A stretch of DNA of 58,726 nt from Candidatus Zixiibacteriota bacterium (GTDB taxonomy: Bacteria; Zixibacteria; MSB-5A5; GN15; FEB-12). The notes below the pieces were generated by a model that had not been told where the DNA came from, ran no database searches, and saw only the letters and a list, made by a program, of their open reading frames with translations. Both the position numbers and the translations under genes were made by a program. Positions 6,420 to 16,070 of this stretch are shown one piece after another. The DNA lies in contig CP070674.1 of assembly GCA_020351995.1 (NCBI GenBank), forward strand, positions 803,862 through 862,587, given 5' to 3'. The first letter of the stretch is position 1. Each line of letters starts with the position of its first letter.

Positions 6420-7136
6420 ATGGACCAAACACTTATAGCAAGTATCTTTTCTGGCTCGCTGTGGCAGATTATCAGTTCTACTTCCACTTTCGGCCTGTTC
6501 ATTTTGATCGTTTTGACGACTATGTCATTTGTCTCATGGGTAATAATTTTCCACAAATGGCGGCAATTCCGAGCTGTGGAAAAAGATAATAGCCGCTTTC
6601 AACACCATTTTGAGAGGGCGCGCCAACTCTCCGAATCGGTGGGTCAAGCCAAAGCCAGTTCGAATTCTCCCATATCTACAATTTTCCTATCCGGGTACAA
6701 CGAACTGGTGGAGCTCAAGGAACGGAAAAATCAGGGCGGGGCTCTGCAACAAACCGTAAAACCTCTGGACAACGACGATTATGAGATCGTCGAGATGGCC
6801 ATGGAACGTTCACTAACCGAGCAAATGGGGATTCTGGAAAGAAAAGTCATCTTTCTTGCCAGCACAGCTAATTCCGCTCCCTTTATGGGTCTTCTGGGAA
6901 CGGTGGTTGGAATCATGGATTCGTTCTGGGCCATTGGCGAACGGGGCTCGGCATCGCTGGCCGTTGTGGCTCCAGGCATTGCCGAAGCGTTGCTGGCCAC
7001 AATAGTCGGTCTCGGGGCTGCCATTCCGGCCGTGATTGCTTTCAACTGGGCCAATAACAAGTTGAAGTTTTTGAATGATTTTGCCGGTAACTTCATACTG
7101 GGCTTCATCGCCCAAGCAAAAAAGGAGGACCGGTAG
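6420..7136 (+). CDS. tolQ: TolQ/ExbB-type proton channel
   Basis: A 238-aa inner-membrane protein of the MotA/TolQ/ExbB family, which with TolR uses the proton gradient to energise envelope constriction and outer-membrane integrity. The first helix is at about 20-45 (STFGLFILIVLTTMSFVSWVIIFHKW), a long cytoplasmic loop follows, then the conserved pair of helices starting TANSAPFMGLLGTVVGIMDSFWAIG and VAPGIAEALLATIVGLGAAIPAVIAFNW. The GLLGTVVG and AEALLATIVGLGAAIPA motifs are family hallmarks. The stop TAG overlaps the GTG start of tolR by one base. Name chosen over exbB because tolB, pal and cpoB follow. Confidence 0.9.
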   Translation: MDQTLIASIFSGSLWQIISSTSTFGLFILIVLTTMSFVSWVIIFHKWRQFRAVEKDNSRFQHHFERARQLSESVGQAKASSNSPISTIFLSGYNELVELKERKNQGGALQQTVKPLDNDDYEIVEMAMERSLTEQMGILERKVIFLASTANSAPFMGLLGTVVGIMDSFWAIGERGSASLAVVAPGIAEALLATIVGLGAAIPAVIAFNWANNKLKFLNDFAGNFILGFIAQAKKEDR

Positions 7137-7570
7137 TGCCGCGAAGGCGACATCGTACATACCGGGCTTTGGCCGACATAAATATTGCCAATCTGGTCGA
7201 CGTGGTACTGGTACTGCTGATTATCTTTATGATATCAGCGCCGCTGCTCCAATCAGGGATCGAGGTTAATCTGCCCCAGACCAGAGCTGCCGCCATCAGC
7301 GAGCAGGCCGAGGGCGTGGTGGTCACAATCGACGAAAAGGGCGGAATATATATCAATGACGTCTGGTCTCGCCTGGAGAGCTTTGACGAAAACCTGCAGC
7401 GAGAAATGCGCACCAAGAACGCTTCCTCCGTGTATCTCCGTGCCGATTCCATGGTTCTCTACGGCACCGCTATTAATATCATAGGCCGCCTCAAGGAGCT
7501 TGGCATTGAGGAGATTGGCCTCGTTACCGCCCGGCAAGAGAAGGGTCGGGAACGTACCTCCCGAAAATAG
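7136..7570 (+). CDS. tolR: TolR/ExbD-type protein
   Basis: A 144-aa protein with one N-terminal helix (NLVDVVLVLLIIFMISAPLL) carrying the conserved channel Asp, followed by the periplasmic ExbD/TolR domain (VNLPQTRAAAISEQAEGVVVTI ends in the GIYIND strand, then VYLRADSMVLYGTAINIIG). It starts with GTG at 7136, overlapping the tolQ stop, behind AAAGGAGGA, so tolQ and tolR are translationally coupled. Works with TolQ as the stator of the Tol motor. Confidence 0.9.
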   Translation: MPRRRHRTYRALADINIANLVDVVLVLLIIFMISAPLLQSGIEVNLPQTRAAAISEQAEGVVVTIDEKGGIYINDVWSRLESFDENLQREMRTKNASSVYLRADSMVLYGTAINIIGRLKELGIEEIGLVTARQEKGRERTSRK

Positions 7571-7575
7571 AGGTC

Positions 7576-8274
7576 ATGAAACGGGAAATCGTATTCTCGC
7601 TCATATTGCATTTGGTGGTCTTCGCTCTAGCGGTCTTCTCCGCTCCGTTTGATAGCACGACACGCTTCGACCCGGGCGAGGTCATCAGGATCCGAGCGGT
7701 GTCTATGCCGGATTTTTCGCCGCCGTCCAGCGAGCCGGTGGCCATTGCTCCTCCAGTCGTGCCGCAAGCACTGCCGGAAGAGGTTCCCGAGATTCCCATA
7801 AGCGACCCAACGACCGTGACCGAATCCAAGGAGATCGAAAAACCAAAACCTCAACCTCAAAAACCGGCGAAGCCTGAAACTCAGCCTGCTGAGGCCGACG
7901 CGGGCGGCGACGGTAGCGGGAAAAAGGAGATCGATGTGGCGGGCAGCGGCCCGGGGTCGCCGTTTGCCGGAGCTACCATCGACAACGCCTCGTTCGATTA
8001 TCCTTACTGGTTCACACAGACATTTAACAAGCTCGCCGCCAATTTTCGAAACACCGTGGTCATTGATGGCCGGGTTGTCTGCGTCGTATATTTTCAGGTT
8101 CTTCGTTCCGGGAGGATGGTGGAGCTCAGAGTCGAACAGTCGTCGGGAATCCCCGCCTTCGACAGAGTCTGCCTCACCGCTGTAGAAAAATCCGCCCCAT
8201 TTCCGCCGCTTCCAAAAGACTTCCGCGATGAGATCATAGGCATCAGCGTACCGTTCACCAATAGTTCGAGGTAA
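7576..8274 (+). CDS. TolA/TonB-like periplasm-spanning protein
   Basis: A 232-aa protein with an N-terminal membrane anchor (VFSLILHLVVFALAVFSAPF), a proline/lysine/glutamate-rich stretch at about 50-110 (KPKPQPQKPAKPE) able to cross the periplasm, and a C-terminal TonB/TolA domain at about 145-230 (VYFQVLRSGRMVELRVEQSS, FDRVCLTAVEKSAPFPPLP). By position between tolR and tolB it fills the TolA slot, although the C-terminal domain resembles TonB as much as TolA. It starts 5 bases after tolR and should link the TolQR motor to Pal/TolB at the outer membrane. Confidence 0.85.
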   Translation: MKREIVFSLILHLVVFALAVFSAPFDSTTRFDPGEVIRIRAVSMPDFSPPSSEPVAIAPPVVPQALPEEVPEIPISDPTTVTESKEIEKPKPQPQKPAKPETQPAEADAGGDGSGKKEIDVAGSGPGSPFAGATIDNASFDYPYWFTQTFNKLAANFRNTVVIDGRVVCVVYFQVLRSGRMVELRVEQSSGIPAFDRVCLTAVEKSAPFPPLPKDFRDEIIGISVPFTNSSR

Positions 8275-8281
8275 AAGAATT

Positions 8282-9607
8282 ATGCGAAGACTATTGTTCC
8301 TGGCTTTTTTGCTTATTCCCATAGCGCTTTCTCCCGGCCTTAGGGCACAGGTCGATGACGACGACGTCCGCCGGTTTTACTTCGACACGATAAGTGGTGA
8401 GTACCAGGCCACACCGATTGGTGTCGATGATATGAAATACATCGGCAACCGTTACATAACACACGAAGACTCCGTCTTAATGTACTACACGACGCGAATA
8501 GTACAGAGTGATATCGATTTCTACGCCGATTTCGAACTTGTCCCGCTGGACAGCTTCTTTCTCAAGACCTATGAAATAAACGAGATGTCGGTACTCGGCT
8601 GGCGCAGGCTGGGCGCCGATTTGCTCGTCAAGCTGGAGGCTGAGTTTCCCGCCGACAAACTCCGGGTCAGGTGGCGGCTCTATGACACCATCAAGCAGCA
8701 GCAATTCGCCCGGGGAGTGCTCGAGCGGTCAAAGGTAGACTGGCGTATTCTGGGCCACGAAATATCCAACGCGGTAGTGCACACTCTCACCGGCGAGGCT
8801 GGCATTTTTCTCACCAAGATTGCCTATTGCAAAGAGGTCGGGGAAGGAAAAGAGATTTTTATCGCCGATTACGATGGGGCTAACGAGAAGCAGCTTACTT
8901 CAACCGAATCGATAAATATTTCGCCGTGCTTTTCCCCTGATAAGGATGAGCTTTACTTCACCAGCTACATGCGCGGTGACCCACAACTGTTCAAGGTGAA
9001 CATCAACAATCTGGAGATAACCCAGGTAGCCAAGTACGACGGCATTGTTGCTGCTCCGGCCATATCCCCGGACGGCAACAAGATCGCTTGTGTCCTGTCG
9101 AAGGACGGCAATTCCGAGATCTATGTATTGGATCTCAAGGGACGGGTTATTAAACGCCTGACACGCCATCAGGCCATTGACACGGCTCCAACCTGGTCGC
9201 CGGACGGCAGGATGATCGCGTTCTCCTCGGATCGCAGCGGTTCGCCCCAAATCTACCTGATGGACTCCGACGGTCTGAACGTCCAACGGTTGACCTACCA
9301 GGGCGGCTACAACGACTCTCCTATCTGGTCAAGCAGGGCGGACCGGATCACCTTTGTCAGCCGCACCAAGTACGGCCGATTCGACCTGGCTTCAATAGAT
9401 ACTTCCGGTATAGACTACCGGATAATGACCGAGGTCGGGCAAAACGAGAATCCTCACTTTTCCCCCGATGGGAAACACATTATCTTCTCTTCAACGAGGC
9501 TGGGGCCGCGAGATATCTTCACCATGGACATTACCGGACGGAACCAGAGCCGGCTGACACGCTCGGGCAGATGCTCCAACCCGGTCTGGGGGCCTGCAAG
9601 AAAGTAG
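8282..9607 (+). CDS. tolB: TolB periplasmic beta-propeller protein
   Basis: A 441-aa protein with a signal peptide (LLFLAFLLIPIALSPGLRAQ), an N-terminal alpha/beta domain (about 25-185), then a six-bladed PD40/WD40-like propeller. Repeats with the pattern SPDGxxIAFxSDRxGxxxIYxMD are clear, for example SPDGRMIAFSSDRSGSPQIY and SPDGKHIIFSSTRLGPRDIF. TolB binds Pal and the TolA arm in Gram-negative bacteria. Seven bases separate it from the TolA/TonB-like gene. A 207-base gap with its own promoter then separates it from pal. Confidence 0.9.
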   Translation: MRRLLFLAFLLIPIALSPGLRAQVDDDDVRRFYFDTISGEYQATPIGVDDMKYIGNRYITHEDSVLMYYTTRIVQSDIDFYADFELVPLDSFFLKTYEINEMSVLGWRRLGADLLVKLEAEFPADKLRVRWRLYDTIKQQQFARGVLERSKVDWRILGHEISNAVVHTLTGEAGIFLTKIAYCKEVGEGKEIFIADYDGANEKQLTSTESINISPCFSPDKDELYFTSYMRGDPQLFKVNINNLEITQVAKYDGIVAAPAISPDGNKIACVLSKDGNSEIYVLDLKGRVIKRLTRHQAIDTAPTWSPDGRMIAFSSDRSGSPQIYLMDSDGLNVQRLTYQGGYNDSPIWSSRADRITFVSRTKYGRFDLASIDTSGIDYRIMTEVGQNENPHFSPDGKHIIFSSTRLGPRDIFTMDITGRNQSRLTRSGRCSNPVWGPARK

Positions 9608-9719
9608 GTGGACCGCCCGGGGAGATTTTCAGGAAAAGAAATTGGGTTTTCGTCGGATCTCTCGCTTGGGGGTAGAATGTGAAAAGGGCGAGTACGAGCA
9701 AAAAAAAGCCTTTTTTATA

Positions 9720-9748
9720 TTGACCGTAAAATCGTCATAATTTAGATT
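9720..9748 (+). promoter_or_regulatory. Putative promoter of pal
   Basis: TTGACC at 9720-9725, 17 bases, TAGATT at 9743-9748. This would allow pal-cpoB to be expressed apart from the upstream tol genes; Pal is normally made in large excess. Confidence 0.5.
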
Positions 9749-9814
9749 GGCAAAACGATATAGGGATATATTGAGGAAACAAACATTTAACGTCCTTCCG
9801 GGAGGTTGATGATC

Positions 9815-10324
9815 ATGAAAAAAATGGCAGTTTTGATGCTGGTGGCCATGATAGCCGTTATTATCACGGGATGTCCTGAAAAACCACCACCGCCCCCGCC
9901 CGAAGAGCCTGTGGAAGTGGCTCCGCCGGTCGAGAAAGATACGACACCCGCTCCTGCACCACCACCTCCGAAACCAAAACTGACAGAACAGCAACTTCAG
10001 ACAGTATACTTCGATTTTGACAAATATAACCTGCGTCCGGATGCAAAGGCCAGTCTCGATGCCAACTTCGCCTTGCTGCAGGAATTCCCGGATGTGATTC
10101 TTAAGATTGAAGGACACTGCGACGAGCGCGGAACCATTGAATACAACCTTTCACTTGGTGAAAAGAGAGCCAAGGCCACCGTAGACTATCTGGTAGGATT
10201 GGGAATTGACCCGGGACGGATGTCGGCTATCAGCTACGGAAAGGAACGGCCGGTCGATCCAGGCCATGACGAAGTGGCCTGGGCCAAGAACAGACGGGCC
10301 GAGTTCCGTATCATTTCGCAATAA
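9815..10324 (+). CDS. pal: Peptidoglycan-associated lipoprotein Pal
   Basis: A 169-aa lipoprotein. I start at ATG 9815, 9 bases after GGGAGG, rather than TTG 9806, so the signal peptide reads MKKMAVLMLVAMIAVIITGC with the lipidated Cys at residue 20. A proline-rich linker follows (residues 24-60), then an OmpA-like peptidoglycan-binding domain with the hallmark VYFDFDKYNLRPDAKASLD, IEGHCDERGTIEYNLSLGEK and RAKATVDYL. The Asp and Arg that grip diaminopimelate are inside CDERG and the final NRRAEF motif. Anchors the outer membrane to the wall in partnership with TolB. Confidence 0.93.
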   Translation: MKKMAVLMLVAMIAVIITGCPEKPPPPPPEEPVEVAPPVEKDTTPAPAPPPPKPKLTEQQLQTVYFDFDKYNLRPDAKASLDANFALLQEFPDVILKIEGHCDERGTIEYNLSLGEKRAKATVDYLVGLGIDPGRMSAISYGKERPVDPGHDEVAWAKNRRAEFRIISQ

Positions 10325-10344
10325 ACGTCGCAAGGTGTTTACCT

Positions 10345-11148
10345 ATGCTGACTTTAAGAAATAAATACACGGCCGCCACATTAATTGTGGCGGTTATGTT
10401 TATGGGTCTCGGCCTGAGCGGCTGCTGCACCAAAAGGCAGTTGGACGAGCTCGGGGCCGAAGTGCGCGATTTGAAGACACAGAACCTGACAACTCAGCAG
10501 ATAGTGGCCAGAATGGATTCCACTATTGTGGCGGGGGCCGATGCCAATAACAAATTGCGCAACGATGTTTCCATAACAGTCAGTGACCTGCAGCGGCAGA
10601 TGGACATGTTGCTGGAAAACTACAATCAGCTTCTGGCGCAGATTCAGCAACTGAATCTGCAACCAGTAACCCATGTTATCCGAAGTTCTCCAGGAGCACA
10701 GGAGCCTACCTCGGCCACTGTCACCCAGGAGGAGCCCGGTACTCAAACTCAGGCGCCGGTTGAGCCTCCCAGAATCGACTGCGGCGCCGCTTACGATGAG
10801 TCATTCATCTTGGTCCGCCAGGGTGAGTATGATCGGGCCATCGAGAATTTCGATAACTACATTGCTCAGTGTCCCGGACACGAATCAGTGGAGTTCGCCT
10901 ATTATTGGCTCGGAGAGTGCTATTATGCCCAGGAGAAGTATGTCGACGCTATCAATATGTTCGAGTATTTGCTTGAGAACTACAAATCCTCGGTGAAAGC
11001 CAGCAGCGCTCTTTATAAGGTCGGGCGGTCCCAGCAGGAGCTCGGCAAGGTAGATCAGGCCAAGGCGACATATCAGCGTGTTATAGACGACTATCCCGGG
11101 TCGCTTGAAGACAGCCAGGCCAGGGAACGACTAAAAGATCTGCAATGA
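10345..11148 (+). CDS. cpoB: CpoB/YbgF-like lipoprotein with TPR repeats
   Basis: A 267-aa lipoprotein: signal peptide with lipobox LGLSGC near residue 27, a coiled-coil region at about 30-95 (LDELGAEVRDLKTQNLTTQQ), a Pro/Thr/Gln linker, and tetratricopeptide repeats at about 150-265 (YDESFILVRQGEYDRAIENF, AYYWLGECYYAQEKYVDAI, ALYKVGRSQQELGKVDQAKA). Family members close the tol operon and coordinate Tol with wall synthesis. E. coli CpoB is not a lipoprotein, while this one has a Cys right after the signal peptide. Its TGA overlaps the next ORF start by 4 bases. Confidence 0.85.
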   Translation: MLTLRNKYTAATLIVAVMFMGLGLSGCCTKRQLDELGAEVRDLKTQNLTTQQIVARMDSTIVAGADANNKLRNDVSITVSDLQRQMDMLLENYNQLLAQIQQLNLQPVTHVIRSSPGAQEPTSATVTQEEPGTQTQAPVEPPRIDCGAAYDESFILVRQGEYDRAIENFDNYIAQCPGHESVEFAYYWLGECYYAQEKYVDAINMFEYLLENYKSSVKASSALYKVGRSQQELGKVDQAKATYQRVIDDYPGSLEDSQARERLKDLQ

Positions 11149-11675: not shown

Positions 11676-11729
11676 CTTGTACAGCTAAATCCAATTTTAA
11701 TCTTGACTTTGTCCCTCAAAAGGCAAAAT

Positions 11730-11764
11730 ATTCCCTATTGTACCAACAGGTACATTTTGGGAAT
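11730..11764 (+). promoter_or_regulatory. Bipartite inverted repeat upstream of secreted-protein genes
   Basis: Inner half-sites TGTACC and GGTACA around AACA, and outer half-sites ATTCCC and GGGAAT. The outer pair is offset by one base, so the whole is an imperfect 35-base stem. It lies about 70 bases upstream of the sigma-54-like promoter, the usual distance for an enhancer-binding site; the role is inference. Confidence 0.4.
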
Positions 11765-11831
11765 GCTCGGAGGACTGACAAAAGATACTAACCGTTTGTT
11801 ACTTAATGGATTATTACCGCTTCTGGTTGAC

Positions 11832-11847
11832 TGGCACGAGTTTTGTA
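11832..11847 (+). promoter_or_regulatory. Putative sigma-54 (RpoN) promoter
   Basis: TGGCACGAGTTTTGTA matches the sigma-54 consensus TGGCACG-N4-TTGCW at all positions except one (the -12 GC is GT). The -24 GG and -12 G are 10 bases apart, as required. Predicted start near 11858, about 50 bases before the ATG at 11907, which has the strong Shine-Dalgarno ACGGAGG. Confidence 0.5.
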
Positions 11848-11906
11848 GCTACTCTTATCGAGTTCGATAACGAAGAACATTAAGCCTTATTTTACGGAGG
11901 TTAGAG

Positions 11907-12368
11907 ATGAAAAACGCAACAAGGCTTTTCACACTCATTACACTGGTTATCGCCAGCTTGTTCCTGTTTGGAACGGCTTACGCCAGTAATGGTCAGGGCC
12001 AGGGCGAAGGGTTCGTGGACCTGAATGGCGATGGCTTCAACGACAACGCGAACGCACCGGACGACGACGGCGACGGAATCCCGAACTGCATCGACGAGGA
12101 CTATGTTTCTGGGGACGGGGAAGGTTCAGCCAACAAGGGCGAAAACGCAAATGCCTACAGTTACAGCAATGCCAACGAGTATGCGGAGCAGCTGAAGAAC
12201 GACCATGAGCTTAAGTATTTGCTCTTTAACGTGCGCAAGGCTGAGTTCAAGGGAGAAGTTCCCGAAGTGCACGGCAGCTGGGGTGACTCCGGCGAGGCCA
12301 ACCTTAATCCGGAGTGGAGCGAAACAAGTGGTCCGGCACAAGACGTCGGCCACAAGGGCAATAAGTAA
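11907..12368 (+). CDS. Small secreted acidic protein with thrombospondin-3-like calcium repeats
   Basis: A 153-aa protein with a clear signal peptide (LFTLITLVIASLFLFGTAYAS). The mature part has Asp/Gly-rich calcium-binding repeats of the thrombospondin type 3 style (VDLNGDGFNDNANAPDDDGD, then GIPNCID). The remainder is polar, low in hydrophobics, with Asn/Ser/Tyr-rich sequence (ENANAYSYSNANEY), and ends GHKGNK. It is the first gene behind the sigma-54-like promoter and has a paralogue 45 bases downstream. Likely a surface or matrix calcium-binding protein; the exact role is unknown. Confidence 0.75.
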   Translation: MKNATRLFTLITLVIASLFLFGTAYASNGQGQGEGFVDLNGDGFNDNANAPDDDGDGIPNCIDEDYVSGDGEGSANKGENANAYSYSNANEYAEQLKNDHELKYLLFNVRKAEFKGEVPEVHGSWGDSGEANLNPEWSETSGPAQDVGHKGNK

Positions 12369-12412
12369 GTAGGTTAGAGAGAATCTGTTGTCAAAGCTGA
12401 TGGAGGTCTGAA

Positions 12413-12811
12413 ATGAAATTCTCAACCAGAATCCTGACTCTTCTGATTGCTGTTCTGTTTCTCTTTGGAACCGCCGTTTACGCCGGAAACGACAATGCTG
12501 AACGCACTGCTTTTGTCGACCTTAATGGTGACGGCATTAATGACAACATGAAAGACGGCAACGGTGACGGAATCCCGGATCGCCTGGAAGCTGATCTGGA
12601 AGCAGGCGATGACGGTAATACCTACATGAATGCAAGCCAGTCAAAGGAACAGGTTGCGGAACAATACCAGCTGACGTTCCACTGGCGCACCCACGAAATG
12701 TCCAAAGAGCTCTTCCAGTACCAGTATGGTGGTACTATCGGTGATGGGGGCCAAGTTAACCAGAACTCTTCCAATGGTTCTGGAGACACCGGTAACAAAG
12801 GCGGAAAATAA
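12413..12811 (+). CDS. Paralogue: small secreted acidic protein with calcium-binding repeats
   Basis: A 132-aa relative of the preceding gene: same signal peptide style (LTLLIAVLFLFGTAVYAG), same first repeat (FVDLNGDGINDNMKDGNGDG, IPDRLE), and a similar C-terminal tail (TGNKGGK, compared with GHKGNK). The middle differs. The shared ends with a divergent middle suggest tandem duplication followed by change. The ATG has GGAGG 9 bases upstream. Co-transcribed with the first copy; the two probably act together or in alternate forms. Confidence 0.75.
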   Translation: MKFSTRILTLLIAVLFLFGTAVYAGNDNAERTAFVDLNGDGINDNMKDGNGDGIPDRLEADLEAGDDGNTYMNASQSKEQVAEQYQLTFHWRTHEMSKELFQYQYGGTIGDGGQVNQNSSNGSGDTGNKGGK

Positions 12812-12834: not shown

Positions 12835-12856
12835 GATGGCGGCTTCGGCCGCCATC
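12835..12856 (+). terminator. Strong hairpin with TTCG tetraloop, no T-run
   Basis: Nine-base perfect stem GATGGCGGC / GCCGCCATC around TTCG, a very stable tetraloop. There is no U-tract, so it may stabilise the 3' end of the paired secreted-protein mRNA or act as a weak terminator; the barrel gene starts 36 bases later. Confidence 0.5.

Positions 12857-12891: not shown

Positions 12892-16070
<3,179 letters not shown>

Follow-up and report, generated by a model that had tools for sequence, protein, structure and literature searches.

Several described systems resemble the regulatory arrangement reported here. The closest is the proteobacterial PrsK/PrsR PEP-CTERM regulon, a sigma-54 regulon of PEP-CTERM proteins that was found by phylogenetic matching (PMC1569441); an RpoN-dependent PEP-CTERM gene is required for floc formation (PMC9850573). 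For VnfA, AnfA and NifA, sites of the forms GTAC-N6-GTAC, TAC-N6-GTA and TGT-N10-ACA have been described, with many VnfA promoters carrying two such sites (PMC7294313, PMC9542535). More generally, sigma-54 has been proposed as a controller of the bacterial exterior (PMC3162934), in a text that mentions neither Bacteroidetes nor Ignavibacter. A search covering part of the journal literature found no publication on Zixibacteria and sigma-54.

The window, meaning the whole stretch of DNA analyzed here, comprises 58,726 nt of Candidatus Zixiibacteriota bacterium (G000; GCA_020351995.1, CP070674.1 [C1], C1:803862-862587), whose genome is a single contig of 3.6 Mb. It carries an operon, A1-A2-OMP1, that is very probably one target of a dedicated two-component sigma-54 regulon. 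The regulon is new, while its type (sigma-54 with a dedicated enhancer-binding protein [EBP]) is already known. Shared with PrsK/PrsR are a histidine kinase and NtrC-type EBP, an upstream motif combined with a sigma-54 site, a scattered set of exported-protein genes, and the same sort of phylogenetic matching by which the regulon was recognized. The operator differs, however, and the targets lack a PEP-CTERM tail. The candidate EBP and kinase scored 385.9 versus a cut-off of 502.6 bits (TIGR02915) and 79.6 versus a cut-off of 300 bits (TIGR02916), respectively, which places the pair outside PrsK/PrsR. An exosortase gene is present in the genome in one copy (Exosortase_EpsH, C1:3145565-3146299), ∼12 kb from rpoN.

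The enteric ZraSR and AtoSC systems have the same domain plan and, of all named relatives, score best for the EBP and kinase, but their targets belong to families unrelated to those found here, and the scores (ZraR, 414.7 versus a cut-off of 760; AtoC, 422.1 versus a cut-off of 714) do not support membership. The geometry of the VnfA, AnfA and NifA sites is that of the dyad described below; unlike those activators, the candidate EBP has a receiver domain and a partner histidine kinase, and its predicted targets are exported proteins. Its NifA score of 363.7 (cut-off, 528.85), together with the receiver domain, excludes it from that family. The synthesis in PMC3162934 fits the present targets, all of which are exported or outer-membrane proteins, although their families are unnamed in Pfam and NCBIfam.

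A predicted sigma-54 promoter with tandem upstream dyads

The sigma-54 −24/−12 element TGGCACGAGTTTTGTA (TGGCACG-AGTT-TTGTA) lies on the forward strand at window positions 11832 to 11847. Its single departure from TGGCACG-N4-TTGCW is a T for C at −12, and the GG-N10-GT arrangement at 11833 to 11846 has the spacing of a sigma-54 promoter. No other site in the window has 0 or 1 mismatch to the consensus. With an approximate weight matrix, good for ranking only, the element scored 16.9 out of 19.3, and 0.03 such sites were expected in the shuffled window; weaker matches occurred at chance level (score of ≥10, 15 found versus 14.4 expected). The near-full −24/−12 fit claimed in the preliminary description was therefore confirmed at exactly these coordinates, whereas its statement that all other promoters in the window are sigma-70-like holds solely insofar as the window contains no other good sigma-54 site. 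It had also made its case depend on rpoN, which is present in the genome as a single copy (Sigma54_DBD, E = 1e−58) alongside ∼21 strong EBP genes.

Counting consensus matches across the whole genome was uninformative on its own (≤1 mismatch, 48 matches versus 57 with the reversed control), so that conservation alone separates signal from noise. Among homologues, the best sigma-54 site was found 57 to 64 nt 5′ of the ATG in eight of the closest and 44 to 73 nt in five more. An alignment of four genus members retained TGTACC-N4-GGTACA, TGTCCC...AGGCA, TGGCA...TTTG and the ribosome-binding site amid otherwise diverged DNA. The transcription start is predicted near 11858, and the ribosome-binding site, CGGAGG (11895 to 11900, forward strand), is conserved in the genus as ACGGAGGT. 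Elsewhere in the genome, intergenic sigma-54-like sites were observed upstream of an Hsp20-like gene (L056; C1:681093), a flagellar basal-body-like gene (L061; C1:282546) and two paralogous lipoprotein-like genes (L080/L085; C1:1724954 and 1858523).

Upstream of the promoter, the predicted main activator dyad TGTACCAACAGGTACA (TGTACC-AACA-GGTACA; 11739 to 11754) is a perfect 5-N6-5 inverted repeat with its center 85 bp and its end 77 bp from the −24 element. A bipartite inverted repeat had been described here at a distance of 70 bases; the TGTACC-N4-GGTACA core proved real and conserved, but the distance required correction to 77 bp, measured from the end, and the outer arms ATTCCC...GGGAAT (11730 to 11764) lack conservation among relatives. 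The longer palindrome spanning 11730 to 11764 was accordingly dropped as an operator, as relatives conserve the core only. Thirteen homologous promoters, including that in the window, carry the dyad with 0 or 1 mismatch, and one more has two mismatches. Its center lies 83 to 87 bp from the −24 element in these promoters, and 115 to 117 bp in some. Motif and dyad are thus both retained upstream of homologues with fixed spacing, as the preliminary description had asked to see.

A weaker, distal dyad-like activator site, TGTCCCTCAAAAGGCA (11710 to 11725, forward strand), precedes the main dyad by 29 bp and is kept in genus members. Among 61 promoters, a second dyad stood 28 to 29 bp upstream of the first in 23 and 21 to 23 bp upstream in 14, with few at other offsets. 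Overall, dyad distances to the −24 element were mostly 82 to 87 bp, with a few of 93, 103 to 108 and 115 to 117 bp, a distribution suggestive of helical phasing.

The A1-A2-OMP1 operon

The operon is preceded directly by a Tol-Pal-type cluster (window 6420-11148; TolQ, TolR, TonB/TolA-like, TolB, OmpA/Pal and a TPR protein) and followed directly by ligA (flanking span, window 14058-16070). The order of preceding open reading frame, A genes, OMP1 and ligA is retained among genus members and in part of the family.

A1 (11907 to 12368, forward strand) encodes a predicted secreted, acidic protein of 153 amino acids with two DxDGDG-type stretches, and A2 (12413 to 12811, forward strand) encodes a secreted paralogue of 132 amino acids. 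Both have signal-peptide-like N termini, DxNGDG/DxDGDG stretches, and FVDLNGDGFNDN and DGDGIPN motifs. No Pfam, NCBIfam or PDB family was found for either protein; among 22 members of the set to which they belong (class A, see below), none exceeded the cut-off of any Pfam family, and no PDB relatives were found. The earlier reading of A1 and A2 as paired secreted calcium-repeat proteins thus stands for the signal-like N termini and the DxNGDG/DxDGDG stretches, but not for family assignment: resemblance to calcium-binding repeat proteins (EF-hand, TSP3, dockerin) consists of the DxDGDG motifs, with no match to a curated family, and that A1 and A2 might bind calcium is a guess from these motifs. 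Nor is the unit a two-gene pair, as first described; both genes are there, but a third, conserved gene, OMP1 (12892 to 13986, forward strand), comes next.

OMP1 adjoins class A genes across relatives. Its structural model has 16 strands (pLDDT, 85.6), and the predicted closed barrel of amphipathic strands, together with a signal peptide, indicates an outer-membrane beta-barrel. A fold search returned 398 PDB matches at an E value of ≤0.001, those listed being mostly porins and exporters. Likeness to OmpG, CymA, OccK and AlgE reached TM scores of about 0.4 to 0.54; because porin and exporter folds are matched at this same level, the model fits a pore and an exporter alike.

Between A2 and OMP1 lies a strong predicted hairpin, GATGGCGG-CTTCGG-CCGCCATC (12835 to 12856, forward strand). 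Of 17 homologous gaps between small-protein and barrel genes, 16 folded into a hairpin; the sequences were unrelated and variable, with a T-run in some. OMP1 genes lack a sigma-54 site of their own, and partial termination at the hairpin is therefore likely. The hairpin is probably an attenuator or a 3′-end stabilizer.

Target genes within the order

A regulon pattern combining dyad and promoter, GTACC-N4-GGTAC-N(72-102)-GGCA-N6-TTG, was searched for in 288 genomes. It was present in 65, nearly all from three families of the order and mostly with one or two occurrences per genome; the reversed control gave three matches in total. One or two promoters are marked in this way in the majority of the order's genomes. 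The same candidate switch, with a matching kinase-EBP pair, is thus found again in dozens of relatives.

Genes downstream of the pattern fall into three classes. Class A is the window operon type, with small secreted DxDGDG proteins and the barrel OMP1. Class B is a lipoprotein of ∼385 amino acids (FGGYTATDE...; C1:3272040-3273188 in G000), for which no convincing PDB fold match was found. Class C comprises a secreted helical protein of ∼350 amino acids followed by a second predicted outer-membrane protein, OMP2 (C1:2949279-2951628 in G000); OMP1 and OMP2 showed no likeness by BLAST, and class C was searched for in viral contigs without a match. A sigma-54 score of ≥11 was obtained for 12 of 18 class B and 6 of 14 class C genes versus 7 of 383 control genes of the same loci, and a dyad with ≤1 mismatch preceded 17 of 18 and 12 of 14, respectively. 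Because the class B and C loci were partly fetched through the pattern, these two fractions characterize the set and cannot serve as independent evidence.

Some class A paralogues are without the site although the candidate regulator EBP (see below) is encoded in the genome (L046, L050, L052 and L054, plus one in G000). The G000 paralogue at C1:637849-638319 (L105 7850-8320) lacks a dyad and any evident sigma-54 site, and is nearer the order consensus than A1. At C1:1361286-1361591 (L149 5287-5592), a perfect dyad and a sigma-54 site, at a distance of 117, stand before only a secreted-looking frame of ∼30 amino acids. This frame may be a target that has decayed or is very small, and the gene for a small DGDG protein, with another dyad, lies just upstream of it.

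Every target is an exported protein, which makes a surface or biofilm role plausible, and because the products are all exported and the small ones acidic, the response would most likely remodel the cell surface or matrix and might involve binding of divalent cations. The main competing view keeps the same regulator and promoter but assigns them to a ZraSR/ZraP-like response to envelope or metal stress, and it is a serious, if less favored, possibility. Of the named relatives, ZraR/ZraS and AtoC/AtoS score highest for the EBP and kinase, the targets are all envelope proteins, and periplasm-directed helical proteins are among them; in one genome (G019; L170 2400-2570), a dyad and sigma-54 site precede the gene for a secreted protein with the Spy/CpxP-like stretch GLSEQQVEQ. 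The scores to the ZraR and ZraS models nevertheless fall far under their cut-offs, and class C has no match to the ZraP family. A surface or matrix program remains the preferred reading of the response.

A candidate kinase-EBP pair

A histidine kinase and NtrC-type EBP pair is encoded outside the window at C1:2946455-2949113 (the EBP itself at C1:2947785-2949113), with class C directly behind it; in f1 and f4 family relatives, the pair likewise stands directly before class C wherever the fetched locus extends there. The EBP exceeds the cut-offs for Response_reg, Sigma54_activat and HTH_8, and a HisKA/HATPase_c gene lies directly 5′, giving the full plan of a two-component EBP of the NtrC type (receiver, sigma-54 AAA+ domain, Fis-type helix-turn-helix and adjacent kinase). 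This pair is the probable regulator of the window operon, acting in trans.

Orthologues of the EBP were found in 57 of 146 genomes, solely in families f1, f2 and f4. Both EBP and pattern were present in 52 of these genomes, the EBP only in 5, the pattern only in 11, and neither in 78 (P = 1e−22; inside the order alone, P = 6e−7), with the qualifications that the P values ignore shared ancestry and that several of the 16 discordant genomes are incomplete, which blurs the counts. In genus g4 (G006, G034, G044 and G048), rpoN is retained and the EBP orthologue is absent, and the class A genes (L045, L040, L043 and L037) have neither dyad nor sigma-54 site. This joint absence supports the pairing of EBP and dyad and may reflect a single evolutionary event. 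One of these genomes, G048 (L193, QQUK01000376.1, Calditrichaeota bacterium CLD4), belongs to the same family as G000 in the taxonomy used, so that the name Calditrichaeota may be out of date. The recognition helix reads LKI[TS]RRRLYSRMK in nearly all orthologues, and RRRLYSRMK was invariant in those read.

As the genome encodes ∼21 strong EBPs, the dyad might instead be read by another of them, the pair beside class C being just a neighbor or itself regulated, and eight genomes of the order do carry the pattern with no detected orthologue of the candidate. This is improbable given how closely the pair is linked, in many genomes, to a target that bears the dyad, the co-occurrence of EBP and pattern, their joint loss in g4 and the invariant recognition helix. 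It is very improbable that the operon is simply transcribed constitutively from sigma-70, with the −24/−12 match and dyad arising by chance or serving another purpose, as site, dyad and spacing are conserved across species with controls, and the weak sigma-70-like site at 11703 to 11732 is one of a number of such sites about equal to that expected by chance.

Separate sigma-54 control of the unit, as the preliminary description had suggested, is thus supported by rpoN, the EBPs, the conserved site and dyad, and the probable cognate pair. Genome comparison demonstrates the predicted promoter and dyad, their conserved spacing, the target set and the co-occurrence with the kinase-EBP pair. From the dedicated regulon so delineated, we infer phosphorylation, binding, looping, attenuation and function as follows. 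The membrane histidine kinase would phosphorylate the jointly encoded enhancer-binding response regulator, which, once activated, would bind dyads of the TGTACC-N4-GGTACA type, arranged in tandem at a 29-bp interval some 85 bp 5′ of the −24 element, and reach RNA polymerase-sigma-54 through DNA looping, leading to open-complex formation. The same EBP would activate the ∼385-amino-acid lipoprotein gene and, beside its own gene, those for the secreted helical protein and second predicted outer-membrane protein. The hairpin 3′ of the small-protein genes probably keeps barrel output below that of the secreted proteins.

A sister version in other phyla

A scan of 84,980 genomes, for which the class A alignment served as the query, identified relatives in Ignavibacteria, Chlorobi, Calditrichaeota, KSB1, Neomarinimicrobiota, Krumholzibacteriia and others. 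Most of these loci (L190-L222) have a strong sigma-54 site, chiefly 30 to 80 nt 5′ of the ATG. An EBP-like gene lies within 4 kb in 20 of 35 loci, usually with a kinase, and one further locus has a kinase alone; by our estimate, roughly 5% would have an EBP this near by chance at about 20 EBPs per genome. The dyad in these loci is TCGAC-N6-GTCGA (21 pairs at a spacing of 6 versus 0.2 expected, with hardly any at other spacings), and the EBP recognition helix is of the ERNLRYK type, unlike RRRLYSR. TCGAC-N6-GTCGA and TGTAC-N6-GTACA share a common 5-N6-5 plan, and the difference in helix would account for the difference in operator. Kinase-EBP sigma-54 control of small secreted DGDG proteins seems somewhat more apt to be an old, general trait of the Bacteroidota/Zixibacteria supergroup than not, one whose DNA code would have switched between lineages, from one to the other of TCGAC-N6-GTCGA (ERNLRYK) and TGTAC-N6-GTACA (RRRLYSR), with the 5-N6-5 plan kept.

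For the Zixibacteria, a largely uncultivated phylum with almost no experimental work, these data supply a regulator, an operator and a defined set of targets, and they flag unannotated families of exported proteins under dedicated sigma-54 control in several phyla. Because helix and operator differ in step while the geometry stays constant, EBP-DNA recognition can be tested directly. Cultured relatives that carry the TCGAC version (e.g., Chlorobi, Ignavibacteria and Calditrichaeota) could show the signal and the role of the system.
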